Shown: piece by piece, positions 9,144 through 63,331 of the stretch | Position numbering within the stretch: the first letter of the stretch is position 1 | Layout of the letters: the number at the start of each line of letters is the position of its first letter | Program-made: the position numbers and the translations under genes | Notes under the pieces: model-generated | What the model was told of the DNA's origin: nothing | The model's database searches: none | Seen by the model: only the letters and a program-made list of their open reading frames with translations | DNA from: Chondrosia reniformis | Taxonomy: Eukaryota > Porifera > Demospongiae > Chondrillida > Chondrillidae | Direction of reading: 5' to 3' | Assembly (NCBI GenBank): GCA_947172415.1 | Contig: OX359197.1 | Span: 868,001-932,000, forward strand | DNA: 64,000 nt

Positions 9144-12100
9144 CTATATATGTATAAGTTTTAGCTGGACTCTCTTCAATTTTCTCTTCATCTCTTGATG
9201 CAACTCATCAGGTACACCCCATAGTCTCACCTCCTTAACATGATCATTACGTGCTAACCCATCACTGACTGCTCTCCAAAATATGGCTGCCATTGAACTG
9301 AAGTTGCTCATTATCCCAATCCTTTTAATCTTGGCTTTACTGAAAGCTGCAGTGACAGTCTCTACTGGCCAGTTTCTCTACATATATATGAAAGTGGTCT
9401 GAGAATATCAGCCTGTTCTGATGTATGAAATCACTATTAATTAGTAATTAGTATGAATGGCAAATATAAAAACTTAGTTTGTAGCTATAGATACATACGC
9501 ATGTAGTTAGATATTAGTGGTAACTTTAATGGACCTTTGCTGTGATAATTGTACATGTATGTAGCTCAGTGTCTGAGTATATATTGGTCATAACCAGCTA
9601 ATTTGGTTCCATTCCCTGTATATTGATACTTTCATGTTTTTCCCTCTTTTGAATTCATGATGATTGATGTCTATTATATATATACTCTAGCTTGGTTTGA
9701 ATATCACTTCTATAATTATTCTACGTATACATGTACATCTGTCAAGCAGCTTCAAAGCTTGTAGTGCATAGCTCAGATAGATAAGAAGACTATTTTGGCA
9801 TAAGTCGCTATAACTGATTTATACCCCATTGCCATGACATTTGGGAGTGAAATGACTATATATAATGAGGGAATGTGTAAGATTTGATACACAAACTAAA
9901 AAAACGCTAGCAACAAAGAAGCAAATGTGTAAGAATAAATATACTTCCTGTTTAGACATGATCATGCTGTATATATCCCATTAATCAGCAATTCACTTTG
10001 TATCAGCTCATTGCCATGGCAATGGGGTACAAACAAACAAAGCTACGTATATACCTAAAAACTAAACATTAATTTACCAAATGCATCCAAAAAGTCAAAA
10101 GATGATCCATACATCAATAAATTCACACAGTTTGTAACAAAACTAATCATTTTTAGAGACCTGAGTATCAATATCAATTGTGTGTAACCCATATATATTC
10201 GTATATATATGTAGATATATATACATAGACAGTGTGTAATACGTATGTATATATAATTGTTTCACTTCGAATTCTACTGTTAATTTATCTTAGTCAAACA
10301 TATGCTTACATAATTTGGTGGATTACATATCTCAAGACATTCAAAAGCATCTTCTCTCTGACACAAGCCATCTAAAACTGGCAAAGGGTCCGTCTCCCAC
10401 AACTCCAACCAACTCAATTGTGTCATGTTGAATACAGGTAAAATCTCATATCCATTAGCATCTATGTAATATATACAAACAAACACAATATTATAACATT
10501 TTAACTATTGCAGGACAATATAACACTTTAGTTTACATTCATTATATTATATGGGTCCGGAACTTACACCACACATCCAATCTAGTAATAGATGTATTCA
10601 TTTGCAATACTTGGTAGAAGAGGAGTGGTACTGTGCCCCTAATATCCAAACTCTTCAATGTACATTTTTCAAAAAGAAATGTAGTCAATTGACTGTATTC
10701 AGAATTCTGTAAGTACACAAGTATAATAGTACTGATATATAGGTGTACATATACGTATAATGTGTGTGTATATACATATATATACGGTATAAGATCAGTC
10801 TATATATGTATGTATATAAGTCCATTAATCCGTATCAAAACAGGTATCATGTAAAGGGTAAAACGAAGGTATATATATAGCTTTACAAAATTATCATAAA
10901 TAACTGATTCCATACTTCACTGAAATAAAATAAAAAATAATAATTGAGACATACTGTAATATAAGTTTAATCGGTATATATGTACATAACACCTGAACCA
11001 TTCTACTGCATCATCAAGCATATTTATGTACAACAATAGACTGTTATGACTCACTGTTATGGTACACTTGTAGACCAGAAGGGCTAGCTCTTCCAAGCCT
11101 TTGACTGAGATTAGCTCAGTTAGAGCATGTACACCTGTACTCTTTATAATACTAACTTCAAGTTTCTCTAAGCCCTTTAGTAAACGTTTAGCTGACCTGA
11201 CATCTAAAATTAATAATAAAACGTTTGTAAACTTGTAAAATTGTGCAAGTAAAAACAGAAACACACAAAAAATCCAATTTTACAATAAATATATGTATAT
11301 TGCATGCAGAGCCAATGTATAAGGTTATAATGAGTTGATGATTTTTAGGTATATACATGTATATATACGTATACATATATTTAGCTATATATAGCCTGAC
11401 TTTGGGGTTTTCTAAAATTTTCTATGTACTTCATATAGACAACTAGAAAGCACTTATACGTATATACATTTGCTAAATTCTATAGTGATACTATTAAATA
11501 CATATAGCATAGCATACCTTCTTCTGACAAGTGTTCAACAATTAAGGGCGAAGGAGGGGGGATACCCTTGTTGGCTTTAATAATGGTCTTCCAGTGTTTC
11601 AGAGGAAACGGTGCATCACCAAAGCTCAGAGCTGTCAGGTGACTGCACTGTGAAAGGCAGTATGACACTACCATAGCATCAAAGGGGGAGAGATGATCAT
11701 GAAATTTAATTGATTTATCCAAATTTTTGAGAATGTTTTCAGTGAGTTGTCTGTTCTGTGATTCATAAAGCGCATGAAAGAGGAAGAGGAGCTGTGGATT
11801 GGAACAATCACATTCAGATGGTAGTGTTATGGTGAACAGAGAAAGGAATTTCTTGAAGAGACCAACTTGATTATGAGGCTTTGTCAACTGCTTCACCAAC
11901 TCCCTTGATGACAGACCAGTAAGACCAGCAAAGAATCGCAAAACAATGGAAAATGTTGGATTCATTAGATGCATTTTCCAAAACTCGGTGTGGTATCGCT
12001 GAGGCAGTTCTTGAAGATGAAAAGCAGCCAGGAACTCTTGAAGAGTGACATGAGAGAAGCTGAAGGTGCTAGCTAAATTGTAACCTTTCTTGCCAGCATG

Positions 12101-14659
12101 GACCTGGAGGAGACCTTTGAAGTAGGATTCAGATATCTTTTCATTGCCAAGAGATGGAAAGATCCTTCGAATGGTATTCTCAGAGAAAATGAAGCAAGAC
12201 GGATTAGCAGCGAGACCATCAAATGACAGTTTACCAAGGCACGTAAGAAGGTGAGAAAGGTCTTCTGGTAAAGTAGAGAGGTCGGAATTGATGTGACACT
12301 CTCTCCCTTCCTTTTTACATTCCCTGAGTAGTACCTGACTTACATAGTTACTGTAGCAGCTGGTCATGGTAGGTGGGAAGTAGGATTGCCCAGGCTCATA
12401 GATTGAGCAAAAGATGAAGAGATTCATTGGCACATAAGCTCCTGCCATCAGATCTGGCCGTTCCTCAAGAGCTTTCAGCATGTCTTCACCTTTTTGGGGA
12501 TCCTCCATGAAAAAGCTTTCTACAAAAGCTTTGATGGCTACTGAATCAAATCCCTGGATTTCATAAAAGGTGGAACAGAGATTCTGAAGGTCAGGGCATA
12601 CTCCAGGTCTACTGGAGAGGATGATGGATGCCTCTGGAAGGATCCTACCCTTCAGCAAAGGTAGCAGCACATTTGGTGAACCCTCTCTTATTAGCTCTTT
12701 TGCCTCATCTGCCCCATCAAACACCAAGAGGACATCTTTACCTCTTCTATCTAAGAGATCCTTCTCCGCAGAAGCAATATCGCAATCTGACCCATAGTAG
12801 CTAAGGAGGCCTTTCAGATCAGTGGCACTACCTACAGTGCCATCTCGTATTGGGAAATACAGGATTAGAGTGAAATCGCTTTCATACTTTTGAATAGCTA
12901 CTTGCTGGGCTATGTGTTGAAGGGCAGTTGTTTTGCCCATACCGGCATGGCCATAGAGTACACTTATTCTATTAGCGCTCTTTTTCAATAATTCCTCCGG
13001 ATTTATAAACCTATCTATTTCCCCTTTTGATCCGCAGTCTCTGAAACTATCTAGAACTGCTATATTGTCTCCAGTGGTAGACTTAGCTGAGGGCTTGTTC
13101 TTCAGGATGGCTAGTTTGACATATTTTATGTCAGTTGTTCCAGCACCCAATTTGAATTTGCGATAATCGGAGTAAGCATTCTCCTTCAATGGAACCACAG
13201 ATTTCTGAGAAAATGAAATAAGAACAATCATTTACTATAATTCTGTTCTTGTAAAGTATCAGTATATATATCCAAAGAATATATATACGTACTGTTTTAT
13301 CAATCCACTGTAGTGCATTATACCAAAATTTTTATAATATTATTATACGTATACAAGTTTTGACATATACAATGCTATACTGAGTTAACTGCTATTACTG
13401 TATATATATATATATATTATGAACATATTATGAGACTGTCACTTGCTATATATATACGTATATAAGCATTAGTTAGCACTAAATGTTATATAAATATCAA
13501 AATCTTTAAATTTGATAAACTTGTCTTATTAATTATTCAGCTCTACTGTCAACTGTCATACTATATTTGCTTCTTAACAGAGATATAATCATACAGAATT
13601 AAAGATATGAGAATTAATTTGGGTCTTGCAGTCCATTTTCATTATAAAATAAAGCACTCACTGGAAGTTGTGATGTACAGTTCATGTCATCATCGGGAGC
13701 ACTGTTATTCAAACCTATACGTATTATATATAGAGTAGCATACCTATAATACAAACATAATATATGCATTTGCATAAATACAAGCAAAACACTCTTGTGG
13801 TACCCTTATCGGTTAATGAATGTTCCATAATTGTTTAGAGCTATGTCACTATAGTAACGTTACTGGAGGTGTTACAGATTACATTCCAGCCCATGTTAGT
13901 ACAATGTGTAAATTTAGAATCTATATCTATATGTATACAACTGACAAGATTACATAAACTGCAGCACATGTAAGGAGAATGTGTTAATTTACTATATCTA
14001 AAACTTACTAGATTGAGACAGAGCTTTAACTAAGCCCTCAGCTTCATCTCTACAATCGCGGTCAACCAGAATATCTCGGACTGTTTCTAAAGTCCTTCTC
14101 TTCTCTCCAGTTCCATGAGCCCATTTCAGCCATTCTGTGAACACATCCAACAGTCGATCTTCATTCGTTTGTTTGTTAGCTTCAATTGTCATGTACTTGT
14201 TGACAGTAAATCCCAGAGCAATCGCAATCTCCTTCCATTTGTAGGACACCTCATCAATGACACATCTCTGCAGTGTGTCTAAATGTTGCTCAGTAGTGAG
14301 CTGCAGACTGAATACATCATATGAAATAAGAAAAACAGAATTGTCAATTCTGTCAGAAAAGATATGTTATATATAAACCCAATTCAGTCACATTGGTGTC
14401 TAATTATTGTACATTCGATTCAGTGACATATGGTTAACAGTCATGACAACTTAATTAAGCCCAATTTTATCAAGATGCCATAGAATGGTTTCACCATGGG
14501 AGATTAGCTGAAGGAGGTCACACTAATAGTCAGGTGACGGTTACAGTTAATTATATTCATAGCAGTGTCCTGTAGAGCTGCCTTACCTCATATTCTCAGT
14601 TACTGTTCTTTCTGATTGGATCACTGGAACAGCTTTATGAGTCGGGTTATTTATTTCCT
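9144..14659 (-). CDS. NLR receptor: Death + NACHT + degenerate leucine-rich repeats
   Basis: Exons in 5'-3' order: 14659-14587, 14307-14009, 13714-13662, 13204-11518, 11203-11055, 10706-10568, 10461-10310, 9377-9144 (stop at 9144-9146). All splice phases agree, giving about 930 aa. Exon 2 is a Death domain (YKWKEIAIALGF, then TEWLKWAHG and a terminal AEGLVKAL helix). Exon 4 holds the NACHT ATPase: Walker A GHAGMGKTT at 12952-12926, Walker B LLVFDGADEA near 12736-12701 and sensor-1 IILSSRP. The last exons have spaced Leu motifs (LKSLDIRG, ITRLDVW, LSWLELWE, VKEVRLWG) typical of weak LRRs. Such proteins are cytosolic microbe or stress sensors, and sponges have large NLR families with this order. 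The true start exon was not found: the 73-nt first exon listed begins inside a codon. Confidence 0.85.
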
Positions 14660-33488: not shown

Positions 33489-36400
33489 ATGAAGAATTCA
33501 TGGTTAATAGTTGGAGTTATTGTAAGTTAGTTTGTTAGTTTGTAAGTGTACTTTGTTTTTACAAGACAACATTGTTCACCCAGATTCTTCCTGCATGGTA
33601 GTTTGTTAGATTTCTCTTCGCAGACTTTTTAAGATCTTTGAGTTGGTATATAGAAAATTTACCAAGACAAACTGCGTTTTTAAACACTCAAAAGTCGAAA
33701 GATGTACCATCTTAGAGATAAGTTCGACGCAGTTAGAAGAAATCCTTATTCTATTATCAATGTAATTATTGAAGGTATTCTAATTAACCTTGGGGGGCTT
33801 TTATGATTTTAATATTTTAATGTATACATACTTGACTAATCTTTAGTGAAATGTTCCATAATGTTACAATTTTGTCTCTTCTTATTTCTTGGCTACTATA
33901 GAGAAAATGTTATCTGTCTCAAGTTGTTAAGCGACATTGTTTATTACAGCCTACCTTTACTATATCCCAATTGTATATAGCAACAGTATAAAAAATACAA
34001 AACAGATTAGTATTGCATGTTTACACAAAGAATTAAGGGGTATCAATACTGTTTTTACTGGTGCTTGCTGATTACTATTCTCTTACATCTCTCTCTCCCT
34101 CTCTCATATCAAATGTTACTCACATCTACTGTAGACTGGTGTGCTTTTGATTGTAGCACTTCTAGGATTGATCTTATTCCTTGTTGGAGGGCTGGGGAGC
34201 CAGTTAATGTGAGTGCATGCAACAGCTTGTGGTTGTGTAATGTGTCCATGGCAACCTAAAGAGGCTGTGCTGATATATCTTTGATTTAACTTTTATGACC
34301 TTAAGGTCCACTGTCGCCTTTTTTAATGTTCATATGGATATTGCTCAATAAAGCATCTTCAATGATACCTATTTCACAGTGCTTTGCCGCATTATGTGGG
34401 AGTTACAAGAACGCAAATTAAAGCGAAAAAAAATTACGCGTGGGCGTTTCCGGTTTTCCGGTCCAAACATTGCTAAAACATGGTGACGTCATTGTAGGCT
34501 CCAGAAAAGGCGCTGAGAATATTGAGCGATGAGGGTGAACAAGATATCGTTATGTCGTGCGAGTCTTCCGCTTATGACGAAGACGAAACTTACGGAGACG
34601 ATAATGGAGATAACCCTACTGATTCTGAGATTGATCCAGGAATGCGGGGTGCGCAGCTGTACTTGTTTGAGCCATATGGTGACAAGAGCGACGAAGGACA
34701 CAAAGGATACAAAGATTCTGATGCATGAGGACGATCGCGACCCAAGACGATATCGCCTGAATAACAGCAACTGGTAAGATCTTAACATGTTTATGCTACT
34801 GGTCTAATATACCTCGTACTTAGAGTACTCGTCGATTGTTGAAGGTGCTCCTGTGGGCAGTGTATGGCAATGCTGACTGCTCGTGAAAGCATCTGCTGCA
34901 GAGAGGTCCAGGAATGCAGCTACAAGTTAGAAGAGTTAGATTTGGATGCCAGTGTTGTCTGTATAACACAGCACCCTGGATTTAATTCTGTATGTCTGGA
35001 TCCATGGGTACTAGAAACTGTCACTAACGCTGTGTGCCAGAGTTATGTATCTTCCCAAGCTGGGAATAGTCAAAATGAGTAAGTGCACATGCTATATAAT
35101 AACATGGTGCAGTCTGCATGCCTTCCATACCATTGATACTTCTTGTTACAGGCAATACCGCTATGTGGCCTACTGCCAACTGGCACTGTGGTGTTGGGGT
35201 TACCTTGGCAAGCACATACGTGTTGTGCTGCCATCTTGTGCTGTACAAAGAATACGAACAAAGTATCCTTCACCAGGCTATGCTGGATTTAAACCATCTA
35301 GCTAAATGTTTAAACTTTCCATAGCATAAATTGTATAATCATTTCTGATGTACAGGTACTTGAACTGCTCCTTCCTTCAATCTCCTTCTCTTGCTGGGTA
35401 GACCCATGCTCTCCCGTAGAAATGTCTCATCGTCGTAGCAGGTAGCCTCAAAGTGCATGCTGCACAGCATTGACATATCAGTAGGTCCTTCCCAATCCTG
35501 CCTATACCTGCCAACAGCTGCTGACCACTGCTTCCTCAGACTATCACCCTTTGGGAAATAATGCAGTGAAACGTTGTCTCCATTGGTCCTGCTAGATCCT
35601 CCAGCAATGCATTTGTAAGGCATCAGGGCGAGTTCATAAGATAGCGAGCCGTGAAAGCCAACAGACGATTGTCTTCCCAAGCCATGTGTGACCGGTTCGA
35701 TCATATTGAGCCTACTATGACGTCACAGTAAATATGGCGGATTTCTTCGTCCGAATTTCCGGAAGTGAGCTGTTATCTCGCTACCAAGGCATTTCGAAGT
35801 GCTCTAACTGTGATTCTTGGTAGTTCTAGATGATAATCTACCACATAAAGCTAACTTGTATAACCATGACAGTGGACCTTTAATCTGTTGGCATCAGACA
35901 ATTCTCCATATGCATGAGGATGGATATAGACATTTTTGCATAGTGCTCAATTACATGCCGGTAACTTGATAGTTGTTTCATCTCCTTTTAGCCAATACCT
36001 GTATTTAGACCCAGAATTCAATGGAGAAGTGGTAGTCGCTTGGATTGTGCTGGTTGCCGTGGAGATCATCTTCATGTTCATTGTGCTCTTCCTGTCAGTC
36101 CGTGGATGTGGTCGCAATGGAGAGGCCAATATTGGTGTTGGTCTGTATCTCACTGTATCCTGTGAGGTTAAAGTTTTCCACCTTGTCTTACTGAATAGTC
36201 ATGAATAATGGGCAAATCATAGTAATAAATAATCACCACAAGTTTAACCACTTTACAGGGGAAAAGAAGTCATAACTGAAAATTGAATTAGACAGCTGGT
36301 TGTAGTTATCAGCTTTCTGAGGTATAATTTAGGTCACAAAGTGATAGTGTCAGTGATTTCATGTGTCAACCCTGACTCCCTAAGAATTGTATCTCTAGGT

Positions 36401-36971
36401 GCTCAAAAGACTAGATATGAATCATGCATCTCATAGATATCTGTTCGTTATCAGAATTAATTATATATTATGTAAGCACATTTCATGTGTGTATGTATTT
36501 ATATATATTGGGAAATTCCTTGACATTTTTGCACTAGAGCATCCTAGCATGGACACTCATTGTCCTCATAGATCTCTGTATTATAGCCATGACCATCTAT
36601 ATTGGATTGAAGATCTTGTCTGAAATCTCAACTTTTGCCACCCTGGGACTGAATTATCACCTGTTAAAACTCTTTTATGCTGGTACTGTAATCACTGGGG
36701 TCTCACTAGTAAGCAGTTTTCATAAAGTTACTTCTCATTGTGTACCTCAAATGATGATGGTATAGTCAAAGCTTTACAGTTCCCTATTTTTTCAAAGTTA
36801 ATTTAGTACTATATAGGCAGATGTTACCTGCATATATAGTATATTAATACAGTCTTTAATGCATTGCCTGTTTCTCCTATATTTACCCTTCTCTTGCTAC
36901 TTCTTTAGACTCTAGCCTGTTTCATACTGCTTGGTGCTTCAATGGGGTACTATGCCAGTCTGACTCAGTAG
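33489..36971 (+). CDS. Four-transmembrane protein, copy A (about 167 aa)
   Basis: Exons are 33489-33521 (MKNSWLIVGVI), 34135-34208, 35992-36154, 36538-36708 and 36909-36971 (TAG). Exon 2 ends in phase 2 and exon 3 supplies the third base, giving ...GGLGSQLI-QYLYLDPEF. Four hydrophobic spans are clear: VLLIVALLGLILFLVGGL, VVAWIVLVAVEIIFMFIVLF, ILAWTLIVLIDLCIIAMTIY, and LFYAGTVITGVSL continuing into LACFILLGASMGYY. The exon 3 donor is ambiguous: a strong gtgagg at 36162 is out of phase with exon 4, while a weaker gtatcc at 36155 is in phase. I recognise no family. Intron 2 hosts the TTAA-flanked element. The gene is divergent from, and head-to-head with, truncated DPP copy A. Confidence 0.6.
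34522..35305 (+). CDS. P2X7 C-terminal 'ballast' domain protein, copy A
   Basis: Exons are 34522-34773, 34845-35078 and 35152-35305 (TAA), with GT-AG junctions in agreeing phases. The junction of exons 1 and 2 creates W-CSCGQCMAMLTARESICC, followed by CITQHPGFNSVCLDPWVL. Exon 3 continues YRYVAYCQLALWCWGYLGKH, then LPSCAVQRIRTKYP and GYAGFKP. This is the Cys-rich signature of the P2X7 receptor cytoplasmic ballast (zinc- and nucleotide-binding in vertebrates), here without any ion-channel part. Exon 1 has two competing frames: the acidic one from ATG 34522 (with YLFEPYGDK, a motif I associate with stand-alone ballast proteins) stops at 34728, while the frame that enters exon 2 is the next one, open from 34529. 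So exon 1 has a frameshift, an unseen mini-intron, or a different start. Confidence 0.72.
35339..35623 (-). CDS. THAP-type zinc-finger protein, copy A (about 94 aa)
   Basis: The start MPYKC is the usual THAP beginning (an upstream in-frame Met at 35704 is possible). Motifs in order: C-x-A-G-G-SSR, VSLHYFPKGDSLRKQW, then LCSMHF (the C-x2-H pair), and a basic tail KRRRLKEG. THAP domains are C2CH DNA-binding modules shared with P-element-like and Kolobok transposases. The second zinc Cys (normally 'AGCSNR') is Gly here. The whole protein is little more than the domain. It is convergent with the ballast gene inside the same TTAA-bounded element. Confidence 0.7.
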   Translation of the reverse strand: MPYKCIAGGSSRTNGDNVSLHYFPKGDSLRKQWSAAVGRYRQDWEGPTDMSMLCSMHFEATCYDDETFLRESMGLPSKRRRLKEGAVQVPVHQK

Positions 36972-38128
36972 ATCTCAGATGGCCAACTATGAATACAAGC
37001 CTCTGGCCTAACCTGGGCTTGACTGAGCATCATGCATCATTATTATATAACCTACTGTAGTTCTGTAATGCGTGCATTTTTTCAAACTGATCCAACTTTA
37101 TTACATTTGATTTGTATGATTATAGTACATACAACTAAATTGTTTCCCTTTCTTGGTAATTTCTTACTGTGGGCGTTGCACACTGTCCACATGTATGTGC
37201 TGCAAGTGCCAACCGCATGTGCCTCCTACATAACTCATATTATGACTAAATAATGACCACATGCCAAGTAGTTTCGCAGAGAACATGTGTACAATATAAA
37301 TATGTAACCTTTTTAAAAGGTTCGGTTATATATTCTCTCTCTCTCTATATATATATATCTATATATATAATACGGGTTCATATGACATACAGACACTTAT
37401 AATTTAAATCATGCTCTTCACTTCAACTGCATGCCACTTCTGAATGGTTATATGATCACTGTCTTAATGTATGGTGAGAGATACTGAAAACTGACATAAA
37501 GTTGCAGCTTCGAATATCTCCATTTGATAGAGTTACAGTTTGAATAATTTACATAATTTATGTATATATAAATTAAGGTATATAGCAATGTTATTATTTT
37601 GAGGACATATTGCCATATATATACCTTAAAACTATAATATAAAATATATTTATTATCAAACCACAAGTGTTTAACGTTTGATGGATTAATAGGTTGAAGA
37701 CAGTCATCCAAGGTCATGCAGACTTAATTCAAATCGGTCACTAGTGACCGATTTGAATTAAGTCTGCATGATTTAGTGTCTCTTGAAAGTTTGAATTAAG
37801 TCTGCGGTCGGTCAATTGATTTAGTGTCTCTTCCAGTGATTAAATCTATATTACATCTCATAAACTTTGCATATGTTTAGTGCAATTATATAATTCCTAT
37901 TTCATATGTAGCATAAATGAATATAATGCAACAACGCCTCATTAGCTAGTTTTGTATCCGTACCCTTTTATGTATATAAGATTTATTAAGATTAATATTT
38001 GTATACACTCAACCAATAATTACAGTTTATATAGTATATATGGGCCACTATTACTATAAATTGACATATGTGCTCATCCTACTAATTTAAATTAAAATAC
38101 AGTTTAGAAAACATCACATGTACTGTAG
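36972..38128. other. Intergenic between four-TM copy A and DPP copy B
   Basis: No gene. It contains a TC/TA microsatellite near 37330-37370, the hairpin with aattaaggtatatagcaatg and its complement (37565-37630), and the perfect palindrome at 37715-37770. From about 37385 it is homologous to 54020 onward, upstream of DPP copy C. Confidence 0.6.
37715..37770. repeat. 56-bp perfect palindrome
   Basis: catgcagacttaattcaaat followed by cggtcacta, then the exact complement, centred on CTAG at 37741-37744. The matching places next to copies A (near 25005) and C (near 54350) contain only one arm. Confidence 0.9.
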
Positions 38129-45435: not shown

Positions 45436-47430
45436 TACAGTACAAGTTACAATATACTAAGGTAATCTAATATAAATAAATAATTAATTAATTAAATAAT
45501 TCATATGGCTCCAAGAAAGGACCTAGAAACAAAATGGGCATATCATCATAAAGTTTAGGGTATAAAACTCATTTTAAATTAAGGGATTTTTAATTTAGGC
45601 CTCCGTTTGTTAGAAAACAGAGGACAAAGTCTGCATATAAAAGGCCATAGGACTATAGAAAACCTATGGGAAATTTTTATGCAAACAATGTGTTATATTG
45701 ATAAAAAATTTCAATTTGTCAGATAACTGTGAAATCAACATATATCATGGTACATGTGTATAAGAAACGTCTGACGAAGTTTTGCTTAATTAAATGAGCA
45801 AAATAATCAAGATATAATAAAGAATTCAAAGTTACGATTGCGCAAGCTGGTGATGTATTATGATGTTTTTCTAATGCGTCACCAACACCTTCGTATGTCG
45901 CTCCGTACACACATTTTGTGAATCATGTGACGTTGCGTAAACGTCACCGACTCGTTGCTAAAGAAGATCATCCTTCGAGAACGGCTATGACAAGTCGACG
46001 CTCTCCTACGAGAAGGAGCTACCGAACAGGCGAGTTGTAGCGAAGGTTAGATAAAGCGTTTTTGTATACGTTCCCGTCAAGTTTGAGGCAGAGTTGTTCC
46101 TATATTGATGCGAAAGACTGGATTCGTTTGGTCGACCGTATTACTTTGGTAATTTAAGCTCTGTCTTTTCTTACGTTATCTGTTAATATTTTTACTTGTC
46201 CATGTGTAGGAATTAGGAGTGTTTGTTGCGATCATTACGAGAATAAAGCTTTGTTGAGTGTCAGCAACATGAATTTACTAATTTCCTATTTATACTGAAT
46301 TGTATTCCCACTCCTCATATATTGCTGATGCATGAAGACCTCTGGGTCGAAACGTCCAGAATTAGTAAATTCATATTGCTGACTTTCAACTAGGCTTTAT
46401 TCTTATCCATGTTAGTACGTTTTCCATGTGTACTACATACAGTAACGAAATTGCTTATAGCGAATGTCTATAAGTATAGTGAAATACTTTGTTAGCTAAT
46501 TACACTCAAGTACACTACACAGTGCAAGTTACTAGCAAATATATAAAATATTAAATTACAATCAAGTACTACACAGTACAAGTTACAAATTTAAGAGATC
46601 CAAGTGACTATGTAATATTAAAATTACAATCAAGTACTAGCTACACAGTGCAAGTTACAAATTTAAAGAGATCCAAGTGACCCTAGGATAATCAGTATTT
46701 TAAACAGTACAAGACTTTAGTCACACTAGTACTGTTGCAGGCTTTGAAATCCTCAACTACTGCATAGAGAGTAGTAGTTGATACAGATCATCCAATTGCA
46801 AGGTAGAACACATGGCCTACCAATTACCTTTTCACACCTTAGTATAGACTGAAGATGATGCATCTGCATGCCATATATCAACAAAGGCTCCAGTATTAAA
46901 GGGGTCTCAGCTAATAACCACAGCAGATTTGATTTGCCTTGTGAGGGAGCTAAGAACACCGACGGTTGGTTGCATGCATTGGCATAATCAACAGGGTTAG
47001 AGACCATTTTGTAACTTGTACACAAGGGACATCATATGCCTTTTATGTCCCTTGTGTACAAGTTACAAAATAGTTTCTAACCCTGTTGATTATGCCAATG
47101 CATGCAACCAACCGTCGGTGTTCTTAGCTCCCTCACAAGGCAAATCAAATCTGCTGTGGTTATTAGCTGAGACCCCTTTAATACTGGAGCCTTTGTTGAT
47201 ATATGGCATGCAGATGCATCATCTTCAGTCTATACTAAGGTGTGAAAAGGTAATTGGTAGGCCATGTGTTCTACCTTGCAATTGGATGATCTGTATCAAC
47301 TACTACTCTCTATGCAGTAGTTGAGGATTTCAAAGCCTGCAACAGTACTAGTGTGACTAAAGTCTTGTACTGTTTAAAATACTGATTATCCTAGGGGTCA
47401 CTTGGATCTCTTTAAATTTGTAACTTATAT
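45436..47430. repeat. About 2-kb composite repeat block, copy 1
   Basis: It begins with acagtacaagttacaatata and is homologous to 51829-53875. Inside are a GC-richer stretch (45900-46150) with a short plus-strand frame MTSRRSPTRRSYRTGEL, a hairpin (46240-46400) and a large fold-back (46650-47427). On the minus strand 45910-45719 an open frame with VGDALEKHHNTS is shared at 52295-52101 with many substitutions. I recognise no protein. The block lies between truncated DPP copy B and four-TM copy B. Confidence 0.55.
46650..47427. repeat. Near-perfect fold-back: two arms of about 380 bp around a 14-nt loop
   Basis: The left arm runs from cacagtgcaagttacaaatt to ...tacacaagggaca (47031), and the right arm is its complement from tgtcccttgtgtacaag (47046) outward. 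The loop is 47032-47045. Both arms give the same conceptual peptide in opposite directions, simply because they are mirror images. The arms end in the 'caagttaca' termini of the dispersed TIR family. Confidence 0.88.
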
Positions 47431-48425: not shown

Positions 48426-51400
48426 ATGAATTCGTGGTTAAAAGTTGGAGTTATTGTAAGTTATTGAAGGTATTCTAATTAACTTTGGGGGGCTTTTATA
48501 ATTTTAATATTTTAATGTATACATACTTGACTAATCTATAGTGAAATGTTCTGTACGTTACAATTTTGTCTCTTCTTATTTCTTGGCTACTATAGAGAAA
48601 ATGTTATCTGTCTCAAGTTGTTAAGTGACATTGTTTATTACAGCCTACCCTACCTTTACTATATCCCAATTGTAGCTATAATAACAGTATAAAAAAAACA
48701 GATTAGTATTTCATGTTTACACAAAAAATTAAGGAGTATCAATTCTGTTTTTACTGGTGCATGCTGATTACTATTCATCTTACATCTCTCTCTCCCTCTC
48801 TCATATCAAATGTTACTCACATCTACTGTAGACTGGTGTGCTTTTGATTGTAGCACTTCTAGGATTGATCCTATTCCTTGGTGGGGGGCTGGGGAGCCAG
48901 TTAATGTGAGTGCATGCAACAGCCTGTGGTTGTGTAATGTGTCCATGGCAACCTAAAGAGGCTGTGCTGATATACCTTTGATTTAACTTTTATGACCTTA
49001 AAGGTCCACTGTCGCCTTTTTTTAATGTTCATATGGATAGTGCTCAATAAAGCATCTTCAAGCTTTGCCGCACGATGGGGGAGTTACAAGAACACAAAGC
49101 GCCAAAAAACAATTACGCGTGTGCGTTTCCAGTTTTCCGGTCCAAACATTGCTAAAACATGGTGACGTCATTGTAGGCTCCGGAAAAGGTGGCGAGAATA
49201 ATGAGCGATGAGGGTGAACAAGATATCGTTATGTCGTGCGAGTCTTCCGCTTACGACGAAGACAAAACTTACGGAGAGTACTCGTCGATTGTTGAAGGTG
49301 CTTCTGTGGGAAGTGTATGGCAATGCTGACTGCTCGTGAAAGCATCTGCTGCAAAGAGATCCAGGAATGCAGCTACAAGTTAGAAGAGTTAGATTTGGAT
49401 GCCAGTGTTGTCTGTATAACACAGCACCCTGGATTTAATTCTGTATGTCTGGATCCATGGGTACTAGAAACTGTCACTAACACTGTGCGCCAGAGTTATG
49501 GCAGTGCTCATGTATCTTCCCAAGCTGGGAATAGTCAAAATGAGTAAGTGCACATGCTATATAATAACATGGTGCAGTCTGCATGTATTCCATACCATTG
49601 ATACTTCTTGTTACAGGCAATACCGCTATGTGGCCTACTGCCAACTGGCACTGTGGTGTTGGGGTTACCTTGGCAAGCACATACGTGTTGTGCTGCCATC
49701 TTGTGCTGTACAAAGAATACGAACAAAGTATCCTTCACCAGGCTATGCTGGATTTAAACCATCTATAGCTCAATGTTTAAACTTTCCATAGCATAAATTG
49801 TATAATCATTTCTGATGTACAGGTACTTGAATTGCTCCTTCCTTCAATCTCCTTCTCTTGCTGGGTAGACCCATGCCCTCCCGTAGAAATGTCTCATCGT
49901 CGTAGCAGGTAGCCTCAAAGTGCATGCTGCACAGCATTGACATATCAGTAGGTCCTTCCCAATCCTGCCTATACCTGCCAACAGCTGCTGACCACTGCTT
50001 CCTCAGACTATCGCCCTTTGGGAAATAATGCAGTGAAACGTTGTTTCCATTGGTCCTGCTAGATCCTCCAGCAATGCATTTGTAAGGCATCAGGGCGAGT
50101 TCATAAGATAACGAGCCGTGAAAGCCAACAGACGATTGTCTTCCCAAGCCATGTGTGACCGGTTCGATCGTATTGAGCCTACTATGACGTCACAGTAAAT
50201 ATGGCGGATTTCTTCGTCCGAATTTCTGGAAGTGAGCTGTTATCTCGCTACCAAGGCATTTCGAAGTGTTCTAACTGTGATTCTTGTTGGTTCTAGATGA
50301 TAATCTACCACATAAAGCTAACTTGTATAACCATGACAGTGGACCTTTAATCTGTTGGCGTCAGACAATTCTCCCTATGCATGAGAATGGATACAGACAT
50401 TTTTGCATAGTGCTCAATTACATGCCAGTAACTTGATAGTTGTTTCATCTCCTTTTAGCCAATACCTGTATTTAGACCCAGAATACAATGGAGAAGTGGT
50501 AGTCGCTTGGATTGTGCTGGTTGCCATGGAGATCATCCTCATGTTCATCGTGCTCTTCCTGTCAGTCCGTAGATGTGCTGGTCGCAATGGAGAGGCCAAT
50601 ATTGGTGTTGGTCTGTATCTCACTGTATCCTGTGAGGTTAAAGTTTTCCACCTTGTCTTACTGAATAGTCATGAATAATGGGCAAATCATAGTAATAAAT
50701 AATCACCACAAGTTTAACCACTTTACAGGGGAAAAGAAGTCATAACTGAAAATTGAATTAGACAGCTGGTTGTAGTTATCAGCTTTCTGAGGTATAATTT
50801 AGGTCACAAAGTGATAGTGTCAGTGATTTCATGTGTCAACCCTGACTCCCTAAGAATTGTATCTCTAGGTGCTCAAAAGACTAGATATGAATCATGCATC
50901 TCATAGATATCTGTTCATTATCAGAATTAATTATATATTATGTAAGCACATTTTTCATGTGTGTATGTATTTATAAATTGGGAAATTCCTTGACATTTTT
51001 GCACTAGATCATCCTAGCATGGGCACTCATTGCCTCCATAGAGGTCTGTATTGTATGCATGACTGTATATATTGGATTGAGGATCTGCCCGTCTGAAATC
51101 TCAACTTTTGCCACTCCGGGACTGAATTATCACCTGTTAAAACTCTTTTGTGCTGGTATTGGAATCACTGGGGTCTCACTAGTAAGCAGTTTTCATAAAG
51201 TTAATTCTCATTGTGTACCTCAAATGATGATGGTATAGTCAAAGCTTTAAGATCAGCTCCCTATTTTTTCAAAGTTAATTTAGTACTATATAGGCAGATG
51301 TTACTTGCATATAAAGTATAATAATACAGTCTTTAATGCATTGCCTGTTTCTCCTTTACCCTACTTCTTTAGTTTCTAGCCTGTCTCATACTGTTTGGTT

Positions 51401-51450
51401 TTTCAGTCGGGTACTGTTCCCGTCAGTGGATCTCAGATGGCCAACTATGA
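48426..51450 (+). CDS. Four-transmembrane protein, copy B (about 173 aa)
   Basis: Exons are 48426-48455 (MNSWLKVGVI), 48832-48905, 50459-50624, 51008-51181 and 51373-51450 (TGA). Phases match copy A. Exons 3 and 4 are each one codon longer (RRCAGRN, RICPSEI), which keeps the frame. The four spans are conserved. The last exon differs most: FLACLILFGFSVGYCSRQ, then WISDGQL, against the shorter ...MGYYASLTQ of copy A, because of a small indel that moves the stop. The same exon 3 donor ambiguity as in copy A is present. In-frame-only length changes suggest that the protein is still under selection. Confidence 0.58.
49201..49791 (+). pseudogene. P2X7 ballast-domain gene, copy B (exon 1 deleted)
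   Basis: The acidic start (ATG 49201) runs into a deletion that joins 'acttacgg' directly to 'agagtactcg', removing the rest of exon 1, its donor and most of intron 1. The acidic frame now ends at a stop near 49329 and is out of frame with the domain. The domain exons remain: CFCGKCMAMLTARESICC up to 49543, then 49617-49791 (YRYVAYCQLALWCWGYLGKH, LPSCAVQRIRTKYP). The stop after GYAGFKPS has moved, adding IAQCLNFP. An internal start at MAML (49317) would still give most of the domain but without its first Cys pair. Confidence 0.65.
49806..50090 (-). CDS. THAP-type zinc-finger protein, copy B
   Basis: Nearly identical to copy A (35339-35623): MPYKC-x-AGGSSR, LHYFPKGDSLRKQW, LCSMHF, KRRRLKEG. 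The same second zinc Cys is missing, so the loss predates the duplication. The frame is open throughout. Confidence 0.68.
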   Translation of the reverse strand: MPYKCIAGGSSRTNGNNVSLHYFPKGDSLRKQWSAAVGRYRQDWEGPTDMSMLCSMHFEATCYDDETFLREGMGLPSKRRRLKEGAIQVPVHQK

Positions 51451-54400
51451 ATACAAGCCTCTGGCCTAATATAACCTGGGCTGGACTGAGCATCATGCAT
51501 CATTATTATATAACCTACTGTAGTTCTGTATTTTTTTTCAAGCTGATCCAACTTTATTACATTTGATTTATATGATTATAGTACATGCAACTAAATTGTT
51601 TCCCTTTTTGGTAATTTCTTACTGTGGGCGTCGCACACTGTCCACATGTATGTTCTGCAAGTGCCAACCGCATGTGCCTCCTACATAACTCATATTATGA
51701 CTAAATAATGATCACATGGCCAAGTAGCTTCGCAGAGAACATGTGTACAATATAAATATATAACCTTTTTAAGAGGTTCGGTTATATATATAAGGATACG
51801 AAACATATATATATTCTCTCTCTCTATACAGTACAAGTTACAATATACTAAGGTAATATAATATAATATAAATAATATAAATAATTCATATGGCTCCAAG
51901 AAAGGACTTTAAAAAAATGGGCATATCATCATAAAGATTAGGGTATAAAACTCATTTTTAATTAAGGGATTTTTCATTTAGGTCTCCGTTTGGTAGAAAA
52001 CAGAGGACAAAGTCTGCATATAAAATGCCATAGGACTATAGAAAGCTATAGAAAATTTATATTGAAAGCATGTGTTATATTAGTAAAAATTTTCAATTTG
52101 TCAGATAACTGTGAAACCGACATATATCATGGTACATGTGTATGACAAACGTCTGGCGAAGTTTTGCTTAATTAAATGAGCAAAATAGCCAAGATATAAT
52201 GAAGAATTCAAGGCTACGATTGCGCAATCTGATGATGTATTATGATCTTTCTCTAATGCGTCACCAACACCTCTCGTATGTCGCTCCGTAAACATTTAGT
52301 GAATCTTGTGACGTTGCGAAAACGTCACCGACTCGTTGCTAAAGAAGATCATCCCTTTCGTGAACGGCTATGACAAGTCGACGCTCTCCTACGAGAAGGA
52401 GCTACCGAGCAGGCGAGTTGTAGCGAAGGTTAGATAAAGCGTTTTTGTATACGTCCCCGTCAAGTTTGAGGCAGAGTTGTTCCTATACTGATGCGAAAGA
52501 CTGAATTCGTTTGGTCGACCGTATTACTTTGGTAATTTAAGCTCTGTCTTCTCTTCTTACGTTATCTGTTAATATTTTTACTTGTCCATGTGTAGGAATA
52601 AGGAGTGTTTGTTGCGATCATTATGAGAATAAAGCCTTGTTGAGCGTCAGCAACATGAATTTACTAATTTCCTATTTATACTGAATTGTATTCCCATTCC
52701 TCATGTATTGCTGATGAAGACCTCTGTTTTGAAACGTCCCGAATTAGTAAATTCATGTTGCTGACGTTCAACAAGGCTTTATTCTTATCCATCTGTACTA
52801 CATACAGTAACGAAATTGCTCATAGCGAATGTCTATAACTACTAAAGACCATTTTGTAACTTGTACACAAGGACAAAAATGGCCAAGGCCTTTATATACA
52901 TATGTGATGTCCCTTGTGTACAAGTTACAAAATGGTCTCTAACCCTGTTGATTATGCGAATGCATGCAACCAACCGTCGGCATTCTTAGCTCACTCACAA
53001 TTAGGGCAAATCAAATCTGCTGTGGTTATTAGCTGAGACCCCTTTAATACTGGAACCTTTGTTGATATATGGCATGCAGATGCATCATCTTCAGTCTATA
53101 CTAAGGTGTGAAAAGGTAATTGGTAGGCCATGTGTTCTACCTTGCAATTGAATGATCTGTATCAACTACTACTCTCTATGCAGTAGTTGAGGATTTCAAG
53201 CCTGCGACAGTACTAGTGTGACTAAAGTCTTGTACTGTTTAAAATACTGATTATCCTAGGGATCACTTGGATCTCTTTAAATTTGTAACTTGCACTGCAT
53301 GTTTAGCTAGTACTTGATTGTAATTTTAATATTGTACAGTCACTTACACAGTACAAGTTACAAATTTATGAGGGCCAAGTGACTATACAATATTAAAATT
53401 ACAATCAAATACTAGCTACACAGTGCAAGTGACAAATGTAAGACGGCCAAGTGACTATACAATATTAAAATTACAATCAAGTACTAGCTACACAGTGCCA
53501 GTTACAAATTTAAAGAGATCCAAGTGACCCCTATAGGATAATCAGTATTTTAAATAGTACGTATAGTTGCAGACTTTGAAATCCTCAACTACTGCATAGA
53601 GAGTAGTAGTTGATACAGATCATCCAATTGCAAGGTAGAACACATGGCCTACCAATTACCTTTTCACACCTTAGTATAGACTGAAGATGATGCATCTGCA
53701 TGCCATATATCAACAAAGGTTCCAGTATTAAAGGGGTCTCAGCTAATAACCACAGCAGATTTGATTTTCCTTGTGAGTGAGCTAAGAACACCGACGGTTG
53801 GTTGCATGCATTCGCATAATCAACAGGGTTAGAGACCATTTTGTAACTTGTACACAAGGGACATCACATATGTATATTCCTAGGCCTTTATATATGTATG
53901 TCGATACGTAATTCGATTCGATCGATTAATCAAAGCGCATGCATTGATTAATTGATCGAAAAATGTTGCTGTATGAAGCCAATTAATAAGACAGTGAATT
54001 AGAGGTTAACCATTCAGAAGTGACATACTGACACTTATAATTTAAATCATGCACTTCACTTCAACTGCATGCCACTTCTGAATGGTTATATGATCACTGT
54101 CTTAATGTATGGTGAGAGATACTGAACACTGACATATAAAGTTGCAGCTTCATAATCTCCATTTGATAGAGTTACAGTTTGAATAATTTACATAATTTAT
54201 GTATATATAAATTAAGGTATATAGCAATGTCATATATATACCTTAAAACTATAATTCTTTTAACTATAATATAATCTATATTTATTATCAAACCACAAGT
54301 GTTTAACATTTGATGGATTAATAGGTTGAAGACAGTCATCCAAGGTCATGCAGACTTAATTCAAATCGGTCACTTGATTTAGTGTCTCTTGATTAAATCT

Positions 54401-54668: not shown

Positions 54669-63331
<8,663 letters not shown>

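Follow-up and report, generated by a model that had tools for sequence, protein, structure and literature searches.

An element very likely derived by internal deletion from a KolX-bearing Kolobok transposon in the sponge Chondrosia reniformis

The element at positions 34301-35883 of the window, the whole 64,000-nucleotide stretch analysed here (C9:868001-932000), is very likely an internally deleted, non-autonomous Kolobok transposon of the KolX-bearing (Kol0) type, now decayed in its sponge host. Kol0 Kolobok transposons encode KolX as an accessory protein with the ballast fold, and P2X7 came about when a P2X4-like gene fused with a KolX gene (Kojima & Bao 2022, PMC9587614). The parent element would have carried KolX on the plus strand at its left and a THAP-DDE transposase running convergently from its right end. 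Comparison with relatives showed that loss of the DDE core left KolX and the THAP front end between intact terminal inverted repeats (TIRs), and empty sites showed that copies moved into TTAA sites. Transposase was presumably supplied in trans; the analysis turned up no autonomous element with AGGTCCACTGTC ends. One copy entered a stretch of host DNA that later became duplicated, giving copies W1 and W2, both of which decayed. KolX itself may help the element to move, as a protein that binds DNA or the transposase.

Ends, target sites and copies of the element

The ends of W1 were as the sequence-only reading had described them, with two TTAA copies and inverted AGGTCCACTGTC repeats, and its two reading frames were likewise in the places given. 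The left TTAA (34301-34304) shared its last A with the left TIR (34304-34315, plus strand), and the right TIR (35868-35879, minus strand) was followed by the second TTAA (35880-35883). Copy W2 (48998-50350, plus strand) had TIRs at 49002-49013 and 50335-50346 with TTAA at both ends and, unlike W1, a full TTAA+AGGTCC. Kolobok superfamily termini are of the form 5'-RR...YY-3', with 5'-AG as the Kolobok rule (PMC9587614), and the AGG...CCT termini of the AGGTCCACTGTC family have this form.

The AGGTCCACTGTC motif alone was not unusual in the window: with up to two mismatches it matched 7 times against 3.25 expected, a number within the chance range that 7 of 100 shuffles also reached. Perfect TTAA-bounded 12-nt inverted ends spaced 0.3-4 kb apart formed five pairs, against none in 20 block-shuffled windows. 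W2 was one of these pairs and the other four belonged to different inverted repeats; W1 was left out of the count because its left TTAA shares an A with the TIR. The window also held a near-perfect palindrome (46652-47426) with two 352-nt arms, 99% complementary, and TTAA borders (46663-47415). It looks like another TTAA fold-back element, and stretches akin to it lay at 47.8-48.1, 52.9-53.9 and 32.9-33.2 kb.

The strongest support for a real element came from further copies and their empty sites. Across the 117,379,552 bases (15 contigs) searched, exact AGGTCCACTGTC occurred 22 times, and a reversed-pattern control 6 times. Thirteen occurrences directly followed TTAA, the left end of W1 shared its A, and eight were without TTAA; these eight may be chance occurrences because the control gave six. 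A DNA search with L021 (C9:3984410-3986293) returned 16 matches, 13 of them in seven family places and three short and weak. Besides the window copies and L021, these places were L017 (C8:1185770-1187666), two short copies of about 0.64 kb on C4 and C6, and a left-end fragment on C1, so that further loci with these ends and TTAA exist in the genome. They represented about five independent insertions, flanks having been compared for the places other than the C1 fragment. The C4 and C6 copies were rejected as two insertions and counted as one that was duplicated, as their flanks, in tandem-repeat DNA, matched at 89% over a 2.8-kb stretch that takes in the element and at 91% over 2.2 kb. A solitary TTAAAGGTCCACTGTCACC with a different interior (L011, position 2657) had no partner end with up to three mismatches in the 6 kb examined.

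For three insertions the empty place carried one TTAA and the filled place two, as in a 4-bp target-site duplication. The window insertion had its empty site at C5:6497064, where the flanks occurred without the element and 276/293 (W1) or 282/293 (W2) aligned bases agreed with the joined flanks. The single-TTAA empty site of L021 was at C11:4353353 (280/300 alike), and those of L017 were at C8:1181636 and C8:1180482 (267/300 and 269/300). All of these were paralogous places within this assembly, as distinct from the same site in another individual. They bore out the proposal of a TTAA-inserting, THAP-bearing, Kolobok-type element and, with it, the suggestion that ballast genes travel on a DNA transposon. 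The contrary reading, that host ballast and THAP genes lie in host DNA and that the TTAA/TIR ends are coincidental, could draw on the one host context that W1 and W2 share. Coincidental ends were refuted by the copies with the same ends elsewhere and by the single-TTAA empty sites of three insertions, leaving this reading scarcely credible.

Host DNA including W1 (33761-37333) was duplicated, with gaps, at 48455-51789, and both flanks were common to W1 and W2. Because flanks and empty site are shared, W1 and W2 are one insertion. The sequence-only reading was thus right that a second copy exists at 48998-50350, but this copy is a segmental duplicate; an independent insertion was ruled out. The two differed in KolX exon 2 by 0 synonymous and 6 nonsynonymous changes. 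Between W1 and L021, dS was 0.087 and dN 0.062 in exon 2, and 0.089 and 0.032 in THAP, with few sites in each comparison. Read by eye, the host insertion point would lie inside an intron. In a Pfam scan of eight proteins for a host gene, seven had no match and the eighth was a NACHT frame more than 20 kb away. That NLR-like frame (11483-13231, minus strand) was 583 aa long and its NACHT domain scored 80 bits. Elsewhere in the window, a tandem array (62318-63006) of units of about 45 bases showed a strong GC skew of 0.30 and was open on the minus strand (62056-63063), with no Pfam match.

KolX and THAP remnants in the window copies

The KolX gene of W1 lay on the plus strand in three parts: an acidic exon 1 remnant (34498-34773, start approximate), exon 2 (34845-35078) with the ballast segment (W)CSCGQC...CC...CIT, and exon 3 (35152-35305) with the ballast segment RYVAY...LPSC...GYAGFKP, the splice sites of exons 2 and 3 being inferred. 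The ballast signature (CxCxxC, CC, CIT, PSC) was readable in W1 with all of its seven Cys; in P2X7, seven Cys encircle two zinc ions (PMC9587614). In W2, exon 2 (49298-49543) and exon 3 (49617-49791, 3' end shifted) lay on the same strand. Against the Pfam P2RX7_C cut-off of 23.5 bits, the unjoined exon 3 pieces scored 30.4 (W1) and 29.6 bits (W2). The joined W1 protein reached 62.7 bits with inferred splicing and a hand-trimmed exon 1, and a protein joined by inferred splicing from L017 exon 1 and L021 exons 2-3 reached 59.8 bits. The profile search therefore confirmed the ballast protein, and the window copies share the P2RX7_C similarity of the KolX of Kol0 elements.

The claim of a spliced gene with the P2X7 Cys signature held for the signature but not for an intact gene. 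In W1 a 13-nt insertion shifted the frame of exon 1, which the inferred splice therefore no longer joins in frame to exon 2; the exon 1 donor was absent from W2, and the first ATG of exon 1 was lost in both. Both window copies are decayed. Related places were damaged as well: L021 had a stop in exon 1 upstream of the second ATG and a 2-nt loss after THAP, and exon 3 of L017 was replaced by other sequence. A 226-aa KolX frame with the ballast free of introns (L023 1456-2136, minus strand, on C12) adjoined a transposase fragment. Searched against the PDB, this frame matched P2X7 at E 2e-11, and the spliced L021 protein matched P2X7 at E 3e-4; a 99-aa KolX piece of L067 had no PDB match. AlphaFold models of the L023 frame had pLDDT 38.8 from one sequence and 46.8 from 16 rows, too low for a fold search.

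On the minus strand, W1 carried a THAP domain (35363-35623) and W2 a THAP remnant (49833-50090). The profile check requested for the minus-strand protein was also positive, as W1 scored 44.9 bits against the Pfam THAP cut-off of 23.9 bits, with L017 at 57.5 bits and L067 likewise above the cut-off. In both window frames the second of the zinc-binding Cys was replaced by Ser (KCIAGGSS vs KCVAGGCS). L021 kept a transposase C-terminal tail just inside its THAP frame, 17/30 aa identical to the transposase of L068 (E 1e-8 to 1e-9); this tail was absent from W1 and W2. Because L021 keeps the tail and a relative on C5 pairs a THAP exon with a DDE transposase, the THAP frame is the N-terminal remainder of a transposase that has lost its DDE core. 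The convergent THAP had been taken for a gene of its own, which the same two comparisons contradict, and a separate cargo gene was ruled out by the tail inside the L021 frame. No transposase match, and no DDD/E plus C/DxxH arrangement, was found near W1, W2 or L021, and the window element was filed as a non-autonomous derivative because of this. The earlier suspicion that the copy might be non-autonomous was correct, the DDE core being missing.

Transposase-bearing relatives and the ballast census

The C5 relative (C5:1775845-1779273) was 3.43 kb long with perfect 14-nt TTAA/AGGGGAACTGACAC ends. A THAP exon (67.8 bits) and an uninterrupted 533-aa transposase frame lay on one strand, and KolX was convergent on the other. 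The motifs GDG (189), TDRH (257), DVWH (279) and LEVFHS (403) can be read as D-D-DxxH-E. In Pfam the frame had a sub-threshold Mutator match only (25.1 bits vs a cut-off of 26.5), and its probable assignment to Kolobok follows from ends, motif order, THAP and KolX rather than from a tree. The AGGTCCACTGTC family had the same gene order with the DDE core missing. A search for larger DDE-bearing relatives had been proposed; it succeeded for AGGGGAACTGACAC ends and found none with AGGTCCACTGTC ends. Among transposase-bearing relatives the closest was L068 (C5:2283.7-2287.9 kb), whose frames were broken. Extended to 6.2 kb, it showed no pair of 12-nt inverted ends bordered by TTAA and separated by 1.5 kb or more, with up to 4 mismatches allowed.

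Genome-wide, P2RX7_C gave at least 28 matches in at least 21 places (39/39 candidates scored); L017, its exon 3 lost, falls outside these 28. At 17 of the 21 places found, a transposase piece lay 75-821 bases away, in all 17 cases convergent (tail-to-tail), a count that includes duplicates, such as C1:7698 and C3:7658 with their like scores. Together with the 1.5 kb around each, the 66 transposase matches take up about 0.2% of the genome, if the mean match length is set at 400. The four places with no transposase match nearby (W1, W2, L021 and L031 at C11:2266499) were TTAA-ended elements without DDE. A THAP match was nearby in only 10 of the 21.

A piggyBac-type element carrying a ballast gene and a THAP gene captured from the host would also have used TTAA target sites. 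The 5'-AG ends follow the Kolobok rule instead (PMC9587614), and the relatives pair ballast with THAP and a D-D-DxxH-E transposase, with transposase at 17/21 ballast places. W1 shows the seven ballast Cys, most of which piggyBac versions are said to lack, and a Pfam scan of seven proteins from these elements gave no piggyBac match. Such a capture is very improbable, and a Kolobok origin is preferred.

KP is a repressor in internally deleted P elements, and the DDE-less THAP product could likewise have acted as a repressor and so maintained these elements and their KolX in the population. L031 (1124-2438, on C11), which represents a second family with TTAA ends AGGGTATATGACAT (1/14 mismatched), had also lost the DDE core and kept THAP in one frame with a transposase tail, together with KolX pieces. 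The KolX exons 2 and 3 of L031 lie in opposite orientations, however, the window THAP is without one zinc ligand, and the frames of L017 and L021 are damaged; ordinary internal deletion yields the same structure. A repressor role is accordingly unlikely. DDE-less KolX and THAP elements, with at least two origins here, might even be a recurrent type in which the short THAP would regulate Kolobok and KolX would help, a proposal that we consider equally doubtful beside simple internal deletion.

Relation to known elements and implications

The sponge elements resemble the published Kol0 Kolobok elements of the Kolobok-1_XT type (PMC9587614) in their TTAA target, their 5'-RR ends, a KolX resembling the P2X7 ballast with conserved Cys, and a DDE transposase with DxxH; the hosts given there include sponges. 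Unlike Kol0, the window copies lack the DDE core, are decayed and have AGGTCCACTGTC ends. Xenopus XKol Kolobok elements and T2-MITEs (PMC6004289) likewise have TTAA, AG ends and THAP in the transposase; the T2-MITEs are presumed non-autonomous, like the window copies, and one XKol subfamily has AGGGGAACTATCATGA ends, close to the sponge AGGGGAACTGACAC. In contrast to the sponge case, the text of PMC6004289 contains no occurrence of KolX or of P2X. Vertebrate P2X7 ballast and ZCD proteins, including nanor (PMC7016195), share P2RX7_C and the Cys signature. Free-standing ballast (ZCD) proteins are known from sponge to fish, and that paper makes no mention of transposons, with 0 occurrences of 'transpos'. 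Unlike the ballast of vertebrate P2X7, that of the sponge element is carried by a transposon and has no P2X channel attached; the P2X match of this genome (two pieces, C5:6394884-6396740) had no ballast match beside it in the genome-wide P2RX7_C search.

The ballast had been described as otherwise known from vertebrate P2X7; the homology stands, but the domain was already published as KolX, and ballast-like proteins of diverse animals, previously unrecognised, were identified as Kolobok parts (PMC9587614). The proposed transposon route by which a receptor could have gained its ballast has been in print since 2022 (PMC9587614). In a literature search that covered few of the subscription journals, no publication was found on the Chondrosia reniformis family or its empty sites, on the tail-to-tail census or on the two DDE-less forms. 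The sponge AGGTCCACTGTC elements are a new family of a kind already published.

Each of the 21 ballast places found lies in a Kolobok-type element or in the remnant of one. One sponge chromosome assembly, with its empty sites, thereby supports what has been published, namely that ballast genes belong to transposons. Free-standing invertebrate 'P2X7-like' genes should not be taken for relatives of the receptor, nor should ancestral synteny be built on them.
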